Below, in pieces: positions 7,661 through 64,000 of a DNA stretch of 64,000 nt; the first letter of the stretch is position 1, and the number at the start of each line of letters is the position of its first letter. Source of the DNA: Solirubrobacteraceae bacterium (GTDB lineage Bacteria > Actinomycetota > Thermoleophilia > Solirubrobacterales > Solirubrobacteraceae); assembly GCA_030447275.1 (NCBI GenBank), contig JAUJPF010000020.1, positions 1-64,000 of the forward strand, written 5' to 3'. The position numbers and the translations under genes are program-made. Under the pieces are notes generated by a model. That model worked only from the letters and a program-made list of their open reading frames with translations, was not told the DNA's origin and ran no database searches.

Positions 7661-8217
7661 TGACGCCGGCTGTCGAGGCGCGCTACGGTCGCGCCATCGC
7701 GAAGCTGGCAGCATCACCTCCGCCCTCATCGCCAGGCCGCTCGAGGAACATGGCGGCGATCCGTCGGCGAGACACTGCGCCCGAGCGGAGCGTCCGAAGC
7801 CTGCTGCACGGCCGCGGCCTTCGGTTTCGGGTCGATCTACCCGTCCGGCTTCCTGGCCAAAGACCCATCAGACCGGACGTCGCATTCACGCGCCAGCGTC
7901 TGGCGGTGTTCATCGATGGTTGCTTCTGGCACGGTTGCCCCGACCACGGCCGCCGGCCGTCGGTCCGCAACGGGCACTACTGGACACCGAAGCTCGCGGG
8001 CAACGTCGAGCGGGATCGTCGGCACACGTCAGCGCTCGAAGCCGCGGGATGGACGGTAGTGCGCTTCTGGGAGCACCAGCAACCCCATGCGGTCGCGGAC
8101 GAGGTTGCTGAGCTAGTCGCAGCGCTACGCCGAGAGGCTCAGCAGCCAGTCGTCGAGCCCAATGATGCGCCGTCGGTCAAGCTGCTCCTTGAGCAGCGCG
8201 GGTGTCCTCGGCAGTGA
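7660..8217 (+). CDS. vsr: very short patch repair endonuclease (Vsr)
   Basis: Vsr nicks next to T:G mismatches created by deamination of 5-methylcytosine at the site of a partner C5 methyltransferase. Visible motifs are RSRNMAAIRRRDTAPE (28-43), the catalytic Asp in RPDVAF (71-76), FIDGCFWHGCP (84-94) with the metal and zinc ligands, and the closing WTVVRFWEHQ. It matches the methyltransferase encoded nearby on the other strand. GTG 7660 overlaps the DUF262 stop; the first ~27 residues are extra, so an internal start is possible. The last 31 codons are antisense to the end of the restriction gene. Confidence 0.88.
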   Translation: MTPAVEARYGRAIAKLAASPPPSSPGRSRNMAAIRRRDTAPERSVRSLLHGRGLRFRVDLPVRLPGQRPIRPDVAFTRQRLAVFIDGCFWHGCPDHGRRPSVRNGHYWTPKLAGNVERDRRHTSALEAAGWTVVRFWEHQQPHAVADEVAELVAALRREAQQPVVEPNDAPSVKLLLEQRGCPRQ

Positions 8218-61886: not shown

Positions 61887-62897
61887 ATGCGCGGGATCGT
61901 GCGGATCTTCAGCGGCATCCAGCCGACCGGGCGCAAGCACCTCGGCAACTACATCGGCGCGATCACGCAGTACGTGGCCGGGCAGGATCGCGGCAATCCC
62001 GCGATCTACTGCATCGTCGACCTGCACGCGACGACGGTCGCCTACGACCCCGCGGAGCTGCGCGAGCGGGTGCTCGACACGACCGCGATCCTCATCGCCG
62101 CCGGGCTCGATCCCGACCGCTGCGTCCTCTTCCGGCAGGGCGACGTCGCCGAGCACACCGAGCTGTGCTGGCTGCTGTCGAGCGTCACCGAGCTGGGGCG
62201 CCTCAACCGCATGCACCAGTTCCGCGACAAGTCGGTGGCCCAGCGCGAGCTCGTCAGCGCGGGGCTGCTCATGTACCCGGTGCTCCAGGCCGCCGACGTG
62301 CTCGTCTACCGCGCGCACGAGGTCCCGGTCGGCGAGGACCAGCGCGAGCACCTCGAGCTGATGCGCGACGTCGCGGAGCGGTTCAACGCGCGCTACGGGG
62401 ACCTGCTCGTGGTCCCGAAGCACCGCATCCCGGAGGTGGGCGCCCGCGTGCGCGACCTCCAGGAGCCGGAGCGGAAGATGTCGACGACGGGCGGGACGCC
62501 GCAGGGGACGGTCCTCGTGCTCGACGAGCCGAACGTCGTCCTGAAGAAGTTCAAGCGGGCTGTGACCGACTCCGAGGACCCGCCGACGATCCGCCGCGGG
62601 GCGGGCAAGGCGGGCATCACGAACCTGATCGAGATCCTCGCCTCGGTGCGCGGCAGCGAGCCCGCCGACGTCGAGAGGGACTTCGCGAACGCCCGCTACG
62701 GCGACTTCAAGGTCGCCGTCGGCGAGGAGGTCGCGGCGTGGCTGGCGCCGGTGCGCGAGCGCTACGAGGCGCTGCGGGCCGACGAGGACGCGCTGGAGGG
62801 CGCGCTCGCCGCCGGCGCCGGCAAGGCCCGCGCGCTGGCCTCGGAAACCCTCCGCGACGTGCGGCGCGCGATGGGCGTCGGGCCACCCGGCGGCTGA
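61887..62897 (+). CDS. trpS: tryptophanyl-tRNA synthetase
   Basis: Class I synthetase, 336 aa. FSGIQPTGRKHLGNYIGAI (8-26) holds the HIGH box as HLGN, PVGEDQREHLELMRDVA is the Trp-family core near 147, and the KMSKS loop is KMSTTGGTP (near 193). This is the TrpRS rather than TyrRS arrangement. The C-terminal helical domain is complete. No T-box leader is present. Confidence 0.95.
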   Translation: MRGIVRIFSGIQPTGRKHLGNYIGAITQYVAGQDRGNPAIYCIVDLHATTVAYDPAELRERVLDTTAILIAAGLDPDRCVLFRQGDVAEHTELCWLLSSVTELGRLNRMHQFRDKSVAQRELVSAGLLMYPVLQAADVLVYRAHEVPVGEDQREHLELMRDVAERFNARYGDLLVVPKHRIPEVGARVRDLQEPERKMSTTGGTPQGTVLVLDEPNVVLKKFKRAVTDSEDPPTIRRGAGKAGITNLIEILASVRGSEPADVERDFANARYGDFKVAVGEEVAAWLAPVRERYEALRADEDALEGALAAGAGKARALASETLRDVRRAMGVGPPGG

Positions 62898-62949: not shown

Positions 62950-63894
62950 GTGCCTCCACGCCCGACCGCCGAGCGTCGACTTCGTCGTCCTATCGACGAC
63001 AAACTCGACGCTCGCGCGGCGTGGGCAGCGGCGGCGAGCCTCGGAATCCTCTCCCTCGACGAGTTGCGGGCCTGTGGGCTGTCGCGGACGGCGATCCACA
63101 AACGGGTCGCTGCGGGGCGCCTGCACGTCGTCTACCGCGGGGTCTACGCGGTCGGGCACCCGGGTCTCACGCCCGAGGCGCGGATCCTCGCCGCCGTGAA
63201 AGCTTGTGGGCCCTCCGCCGTCGCCAGCCATCGCGGCGCCGCGTGGCTGTACGGACTGATCGACGAGGTGCCGTGCCCCGAGGTGACGGTCGTCGGCGCC
63301 GGCACACGGCTGCACCGGGGGATCCGCGTGCACCGCACCGCGGCGCTCGAAGCCGTGGACCGGCGGCGATGGAAGGGGATTCCGGTGACGTCGCCGGCGC
63401 GGACGCTGCTCGACTGCGCGGCGGTGGTGCCGGAGCCGACCGTGAGGAGGCTGGTGAGGGAGGCGTTCGCCAAGCGCCTGGTCACCCTCGACGAGCTCAT
63501 CGGGATCCTCCGCCGCCTCGGGCCGCGGCGCGGTTCGCGGCGGTTCGCGATGGTCGTCGCCAGCGGTTTCGTCCCCACGCGCAGCGTGCTCGAGGACGTC
63601 GTCCTCGACCTGTTCGACCGGGGCGGGCTGGCCCGGCCGGACGTCAACGTCGGGCTGCGACTCGGCGGCCGCGTCGTCGTCCCCGACTTCCGCTGGCCGT
63701 CCGCGCAGCTCGTCGTCGAGGCCGACGGGCGCGCGTTCCATGACCACAAGATCGCCCGCGAGGACGACGCGGCGCGCCAGGCGCTGCTCGAGGCCCACGG
63801 TGAGCGCGTCCTGAGAGTGACGTGGGAGCAGGCGATGAAGCGGCCCGAGCAGACGCTCGCGCGGCTCCGAGCGGCCGGCGCGCCGGGCGCGTGA
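62950..63894 (+). CDS. AbiEi-type HTH plus DUF559 (Vsr-like nuclease fold) protein
   Basis: The 314-aa frame begins at GTG 62950. The first ~22 residues are encoded by the palindromic repeat, so the true start may be internal, near LDARAAWAAAASLGIL. Residues 35-75 are an AbiEi antitoxin-like winged helix (ILSLDELRACGLSRTAIHKR, VVYRGVYAVGHPG). The central part has the AbiEi VTSPARTLLDCAAVV segment. The C-terminal DUF559 domain shows VVPDFRWPSAQLVVEADGRA, FHDHKIAREDDAARQ and VLRVTWEQ, the Vsr/PD-(D/E)xK-like core. No AbiEii toxin partner follows. The flanking palindromes suggest mobility or special regulation; function unknown. Confidence 0.8.
   Translation: MPPRPTAERRLRRPIDDKLDARAAWAAAASLGILSLDELRACGLSRTAIHKRVAAGRLHVVYRGVYAVGHPGLTPEARILAAVKACGPSAVASHRGAAWLYGLIDEVPCPEVTVVGAGTRLHRGIRVHRTAALEAVDRRRWKGIPVTSPARTLLDCAAVVPEPTVRRLVREAFAKRLVTLDELIGILRRLGPRRGSRRFAMVVASGFVPTRSVLEDVVLDLFDRGGLARPDVNVGLRLGGRVVVPDFRWPSAQLVVEADGRAFHDHKIAREDDAARQALLEAHGERVLRVTWEQAMKRPEQTLARLRAAGAPGA
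62965..63019. repeat. palindromic repeat, copy 1 (at the 5' end of the AbiEi-DUF559 gene)
   Basis: CGAGCGTCGACTTCGTCGTC (62970-62989) faces GACGACAAACTCGACGCTCG (62995-63014), 18 of 20 positions pairing with a five-base centre. It is 84% identical over 50 bp to copy 2 at the other end of the gene. It is read through as the first ~20 codons of the gene when the GTG at 62950 is used. Confidence 0.85.
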
Positions 63895-63948
63895 CCGCCG
63901 ACCGTCGAGTTCGTCGTCGATACGACGACGAAGTCGACGCTCGGCGGG
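63894..63948. repeat. palindromic repeat, copy 2 (directly after the AbiEi-DUF559 stop)
   Basis: CGACCGTCGAGTTCGTCGTC (63899-63918) faces GACGACGAAGTCGACGCTCG (63924-63943), 18 of 20 positions pairing with a five-base centre. It begins at the stop codon of the gene. The remaining 50 bp to the window end show no gene. Confidence 0.85.
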
Positions 63949-64000
63949 TTGGGGGTGGTCGTCGGGGCCCGCCGCTAGCCTCCCGGCGCAGTGTCCGCGG

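Follow-up and report, generated by a model that had tools for sequence, protein, structure and literature searches.

Many AbiEi-DUF559 genes of Thermoleophilia each have their own dispersed palindrome: a candidate counterpart of the REP/RAYT system

Repetitive extragenic palindromic (REP)-like sequences are widespread in bacteria, and the mechanism by which their HUH enzyme disseminates them is still unsolved. To our knowledge this HUH tyrosine nuclease is the only enzyme known to accompany such palindromes. The defining mark of REP sequences is a conserved tetranucleotide at the palindrome's foot, in most cases GTAG (PMC8266576). Here we analyse a 64,000-nucleotide stretch of contig JAUJPF010000020.1 (the window; its source genome is labelled G000), in which a gene with an AbiEi winged helix and a DUF559 nuclease domain is bracketed by two palindromes. 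As in the REP/RAYT systems (RAYT, REP-associated tyrosine transposase; also TnpAREP, REPtrons), a gene, usually in single copy, adjoins imperfect palindromes whose other copies are dispersed intergenically in one genome; each repeat belongs to its own gene, a conserved internal mismatch orients the palindrome, and copies may flank the gene. Many AbiEi-DUF559 genes of this group of soil bacteria each have their own palindrome, scattered mostly as solitary intergenic copies and, among the genomes searched, found in their own genome alone. The gene and palindromes of the window are probably one instance of a REP/RAYT-like arrangement on an unrelated nuclease. An earlier sequence-only reading of this DNA had noted the resemblance and the different enzyme class, and both hold, in that the cognate palindromes are dispersed and the gene has no Y1 domain.

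The first palindrome (62970-63014) has 20-bp arms, of which 18 of 20 positions pair, and a 5-nt centre; it lies within the start of the open reading frame and supplies its first ~20 codons. The second (63895-63947) has 25-bp arms, 92% paired, around a 3-nt centre. The pair at the two ends of the gene, the make-up of the first copy, its overlap with the coding sequence and the start-to-start distance of 929 had all been described in the sequence-only reading and measured as claimed. It had, however, taken the two for direct repeats (84% identity over 50 bp), whereas they match better as inverted repeats, with 94% identity over 49 bp (62966-63014 against 63899-63947) compared with 82% over 56 bp in direct orientation. 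A C.C mismatch inside the palindrome, conserved among the copies, gives it its orientation (columns 12 and 36 of the 16-copy alignment A3: GTCGACTT...AACTCGAC). A search of the window for a 29-mer from the palindrome, allowing as many as 3 mismatches, finds just these two places, where shuffled sequences lead one to expect 0.00, and a chance origin of the pair is ruled out. Searches for a known RNA or riboswitch at the palindrome returned sub-threshold microRNA hairpin matches only.

Carrying the search proposed in that reading to the rest of G000, a Solirubrobacterales metagenome-assembled genome of 3.94 Mb that is 78% complete, we found the palindrome at ~12 sites with up to 3 mismatches, and at ~14 solo sites when diverged copies are included. 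None of the solo sites has an AbiEi-DUF559 gene nearby, and 145 further genomes of the family gave no match to the palindrome. The 16 aligned copies have a common core of ~47 bp, while their flanks share no sequence at all. Compensatory double changes occur at four of the base pairs, a level reached by 5 of 500 shuffles; the dyad of the palindrome is kept by compensatory changes.

The same pairing recurs with other genes and other repeats. Thirteen palindromes lying beside homologous genes in 13 relatives were searched for in 14 genomes, and gave matches exclusively in the source genome, with additional copies there in 11 cases. Of 14 palindromes taken from genomes that are named or public, among them Conexibacter and Solirubrobacter, 13 were dispersed. 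Their matches were again confined to their own genome, the one exception being two congeneric Solirubrobacter genomes whose palindromes are related, so that in the pooled sets 24 of 27 homologous genes have a palindrome repeated elsewhere in their own genome. Among 77 homologues, collected by a scan of GTDB contigs with alignment A2, a strong upstream inverted repeat (score of at least 11) was present in 39, compared with 0.6% of 340 control windows (Mann-Whitney p 7e-17). The gene-linked palindromes are imperfect, ~35-60 bp long, and overlap the 5' end of the gene or lie just upstream of it, and their spacing from the winged helix downstream is fixed. A homologous palindrome is found also at the 3' end, often across the stop codon, in 13 of the 46 homologues that could be tested (about a quarter), and the bracketed form is therefore recurrent. 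Many of the palindromes have a common outline, of outer arm, TT, inner arm, TAT-like centre, inner arm, AA and outer arm, and the nearest homologues within the family have related arms (for example L204 and L143, GTCGAGTGTCGAGTT...AAGTCGACACTCGAC). One such gene with its palindrome, of the Thermoleophilia type, comes from a record titled as a Bifidobacterium breve metagenome-assembled genome (L262, CAMCUD010000007.1), a title that is probably wrong.

G000 itself has about ten AbiEi_4-DUF559 genes, which are divergent; in most of these paralogues the winged helix is closely preceded by an inverted repeat, which differs from gene to gene. For six of the ten, namely the window gene and those at C60, C11:160481, C81, C87 and C40, the upstream region is dispersed within G000, each as a separate family. 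When intergenic repeats were sought de novo in 1.68 Mb of G000, these families were found again (14, 12, 5 and 4 members); among the families listed with at least 3 members, the dispersed long palindromes are the AbiEi-DUF559-linked ones, the other long palindrome being a local cluster at C33:180-184 kb, and a further dispersed family that was followed up is a c-di-AMP riboswitch. The C33 cluster (C33:180723-184241) consists of four near-identical GC-rich hairpins (CGAGGGGCCCGGC...), which are probably terminators.

The protein encoded in the window is an AbiEi module fused to a predicted EDxHD/Vsr-type nuclease, much as the sequence-only reading had it. Pfam assigns AbiEi_4 and DUF559/MTES_1575 (Table 1), and the AlphaFold2 model has a predicted local distance difference test score of 90.5, with low confidence for residues 1-20, which the palindrome encodes. 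With this model Foldseek finds the entire AbiEi fold (6y8q_A, E 1.9e-5 over 202 columns), and for the C-terminal domain the homing endonuclease I-Bth0305I (3r3p, E 2.5e-3) and Vsr (1cw0, E 4.8e-3), both with probability 1.0 though with modest E-values. A sequence search of the PDB gave no match, and no known transposase family was found in the protein with Pfam. Glu215, Asp246, Glu257, Asp259, His264 and Asp273 are invariant across 19 divergent homologues, in which Pfam detects DUF559 in 19 of 19 and AbiEi_4 in 18 of 19.

Table 1. Features at the AbiEi-DUF559 locus (window coordinates)
Feature	Position	Strand	Remarks
Upstream palindrome	62966..63014	+	overlaps codons ~6-22; 16-copy alignment A3, 4 pairs with compensatory changes
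AbiEi-fold + DUF559/EDxHD nuclease gene (predicted), 314 amino acids, GTG start	62950..63894	+	Pfam AbiEi_4 1.6e-8, DUF559 1.1e-7
AbiEi_4 winged-helix region, residues 27-68	63028..63153	+	Pfam
DUF559/MTES_1575 nuclease region	63682..63867	+	invariant D246, E257, D259, H264, D273; E215 just N-terminal of the region
Downstream palindrome	63895..63947	-	inverted relative to upstream copy; begins directly after the stop codon
trpS, left flank	61887..62897	+	adjoins scpA in most relatives
scpA start, right flank	63991..64000	+	runs on past the window; ScpA Pfam 1.4e-20

The comparison of filled and empty sites that had also been proposed could be made at the flanking genes. The trpS and scpA genes are adjacent in most relatives, with gaps of 41-239 bp among those examined, and in G001, a genome of the same genus, the gap has no palindrome; in G000 a palindrome-gene-palindrome unit of ~1 kb lies between them. 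Judging from this gene order, the trpS-scpA junction of the relatives is an empty site for the unit. Several relatives, G007, G022, G043 and G050 among them, have other insertions of 1-3 kb in the same gap. In another genome a dispersed palindrome (L185, G035:C11:160159-160217) is adjoined by a 49-residue remnant of its cognate gene, 63% identical, which suggests that whole units also arrive and decay.

The locus differs from the described systems in several ways. RAYT is a Y1 HUH tyrosine nuclease (PF01797), in place of which we find an AbiEi winged helix with an EDxHD/Vsr-type nuclease, and the copy numbers are about 2-25 compared with hundreds for REP; no GTAG-type tetranucleotide is seen at the foot of the palindrome in the consensus of 16 copies. 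The unit would function like a REPtron (PMC8266576) and yet is not one, because the Y1 enzyme and GTAG are both lacking. With the AbiE type IV toxin-antitoxin systems it shares the whole AbiEi fold, and inverted repeats that are alike in length and arrangement and lie just upstream of the gene. However, no AbiEii toxin (PF08843) is found next to the window gene, as had been pointed out before, its neighbours being trpS upstream and scpA downstream; the nuclease is fused, and the palindrome is dispersed and often present at the 3' end too. Since the toxin is lacking it is not an AbiE toxin-antitoxin. The C-terminal fold and the invariant acidic and histidine residues are those of I-Bth0305I and Vsr, but the domain is fused to AbiEi, it is not in an intron or intein, and no linked cytosine methylase is seen alongside the window gene. 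Inverted 49-bp ends around a single ~1-kb gene, together with many short non-coding copies, also recall insertion sequences and miniature inverted-repeat transposable elements, from which the unit differs in having no DDE, serine, tyrosine or HUH recombinase and in that each end is a full palindrome.

On balance we favour an independently evolved class of palindrome-mobilising proteins, in which the AbiEi winged helix and the Vsr/EDxHD nuclease would recognise and spread a cognate palindrome; this functional counterpart of REP/RAYT, unrelated to it in catalytic mechanism, would have diversified into numerous orthogonal pairs of gene and repeat in Thermoleophilia and in some of the other Actinomycetota. 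It would seem that the AbiEi module binds the palindrome with one monomer per arm, since AbiEi binds two 23-bp inverted repeats, 3 bp apart, in its own promoter (PMC7319586) and the downstream copy here has the similar layout 25-3-25; binding is well supported by this precedent. Two bound modules would bring two nuclease domains to the palindrome, which may then be nicked or cut at or near it, and such cutting is supported by the conserved residues and the predicted fold. Host replication or repair would copy the palindrome into new intergenic places and, now and then, the entire palindrome-gene-palindrome unit; this copying, or mobilisation, we infer from the distribution of the palindromes. 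The gene-adjacent copy probably doubles as an autoregulatory operator. Autoregulation in addition to spread is likely by analogy, as AbiEi antitoxins bind inverted repeats in their own promoters (PMC7319586). The sequence-only reading had proposed a self-mobilising or self-regulating single-gene unit, and this is supported by the solo copies, the empty site and the dispersed palindromes of other genes in the family, with mobility and cleavage as putative steps; what changes is that the arrangement proves to be family-wide and not the property of one odd gene.

A number of observations weigh against this explanation. The upstream regions of four of the ten paralogues (C33, C11:142076, C82 and C90) have no dispersed family in G000, the genes of G029, G054 and G200 are without a dispersed palindrome family, and a strong inverted repeat is missing upstream of about half of the homologues. 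The similarity of the proteins is weakly correlated with that of their palindromes (Mantel rho 0.10; 48 of 2000 permutations, p about 0.02). The relatives used for the empty site are different species whose intergenic DNA is not alignable, so the exact insertion boundaries cannot be set, and a target-site duplication of the kind made by insertion sequences was neither detected nor definable in such DNA. A solo site could be compared with G001 at one site and on one side, where the stop codon is conserved and the palindrome absent.

That the palindromes are regulatory operators and nothing more, by which the AbiEi module keeps its own gene and, through the dispersed copies, a regulon repressed, seems unlikely. 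AbiEi antitoxins do autoregulate, and the paired inverted repeats that they use have the size and position seen here (PMC7319586), and the gene-adjacent palindrome keeps its distance from the winged helix. However, of 47 classifiable solo copies from G000 and other genomes (four non-solo loci were removed by hand, and gene calls came from a simple GC-frame script, so single assignments may err) 25 lie between convergent genes, which make up 15.7% of the intergenic length (p 3e-9), and only 2 between divergent genes, against a background of 27.5% of gaps (p 5e-5). As the solo copies are mostly between convergent genes self-regulation is insufficient, and the convergent bias together with the avoidance of divergent promoters is REP-like and not that of a regulon. 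Nor would a second copy at the 3' end be expected of an operator, or repeat families private to single genomes. As a control we took from other Actinomycetota seven AbiEi_4 genes that lack a nuclease domain; all have upstream inverted repeats, and most have an AbiEii-like gene next downstream (confirmed with Pfam for two). Their palindromes matched only themselves (dispersed in 0 of 7), compared with copies elsewhere for 32 of 42 nuclease-fused genes (one-sided hypergeometric ~2e-4, calculated by hand, for groups that differ in taxonomy and base composition). Although these control genes come from other classes and have differing base composition, which tempers the comparison, they and the location of the solo copies lead us to reject plain operators or a regulon. 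Nuclease-fused genes from other classes also vary, with dispersed palindromes at L369 (G274) and L375 (G367; the gene is frameshifted), bracketing at L364 (G219), local tandem copies at L362 (G279) and no further copies at L368 (G200). In G279, outside Thermoleophilia, four tandem palindrome copies lie downstream of an AbiEi-nuclease gene (L382/L392/L396, C3:30458-30679).

We consider it quite improbable that the gene is a selfish, homing-like nuclease that cleaves the palindrome, with the solo copies as targets not yet occupied, into which the gene would be copied by break repair. The kinship of the catalytic domain, nearest among solved structures to I-Bth0305I together with Vsr, would suit such a role, as would the bracketed genes of the window and 13 of 46 others, the absence of the unit from the orthologous locus and the remnant at L185. 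The gene does not, however, split a palindrome but lies between two complete ones; copies with a gene are far fewer than solo copies, and among the latter no sequence is shared in the flanks, which leaves little homology as a driver. It is very doubtful that another resident enzyme such as RAYT spread the repeats, with the AbiEi-DUF559 genes as chance arrivals among them. G000 does have one Y1 transposase gene, but this has its own, different repeat, GGGGACTGTCCCC, and chance landing leaves the one-to-one pairing of genes and repeats (ten paralogues, and 27 genes elsewhere) unexplained; the sole Y1 gene found in G000 lies elsewhere, and on account of its different repeat RAYT was rejected as the mover. 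Just as improbable is a defence or restriction device with the genomic palindromes as self-marks or titration sites of the nuclease. PADLOC AbiEi models match the N-terminal part of the protein (1.1e-27), and PDC-S37 and Hhe match weakly within the nuclease domain, the latter reflecting shared nuclease folds only; no toxin, methylase or defence partner lies beside the gene between trpS and scpA, and the repeat families are private to one genome with merely ~2-25 copies.

If a second, unrelated enzyme class has cognate palindromes, such repeats would have evolved more than once, and many orthogonal protein-DNA pairs would become available for studying how palindromes spread. Some of the many genes annotated as DUF559 or solitary AbiEi, and at present read as antitoxin or unknown, would become mobile-repeat machinery. 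Cultured hosts exist in Conexibacter arvalis DSM 23288 and Solirubrobacter phytolaccae KCTC 29190. In the open-access literature, which leaves out subscription papers and preprints outside PMC, we found nothing linking DUF559 or AbiEi-nuclease fusions to dispersed palindromes, and priority is for that reason not certain.

Three further features were observed. The window has a second, weak DUF559 match (8002-8106, + strand) in a frame of 235 residues that has neither an AbiEi domain nor a strong palindrome. G000 has a seven-copy dispersed intergenic family (C51:59111-59252 and six others, on C11, C40, C51, C57 and C94), of which one copy was tested and matches the c-di-AMP (ydaO) riboswitch of Rfam; the genome seems rich in these. 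The Y1 (RAYT-like) transposase gene of G000 (L312, C82:79185-79508) has its repeats upstream and provides a REP-type comparator within the same genome.
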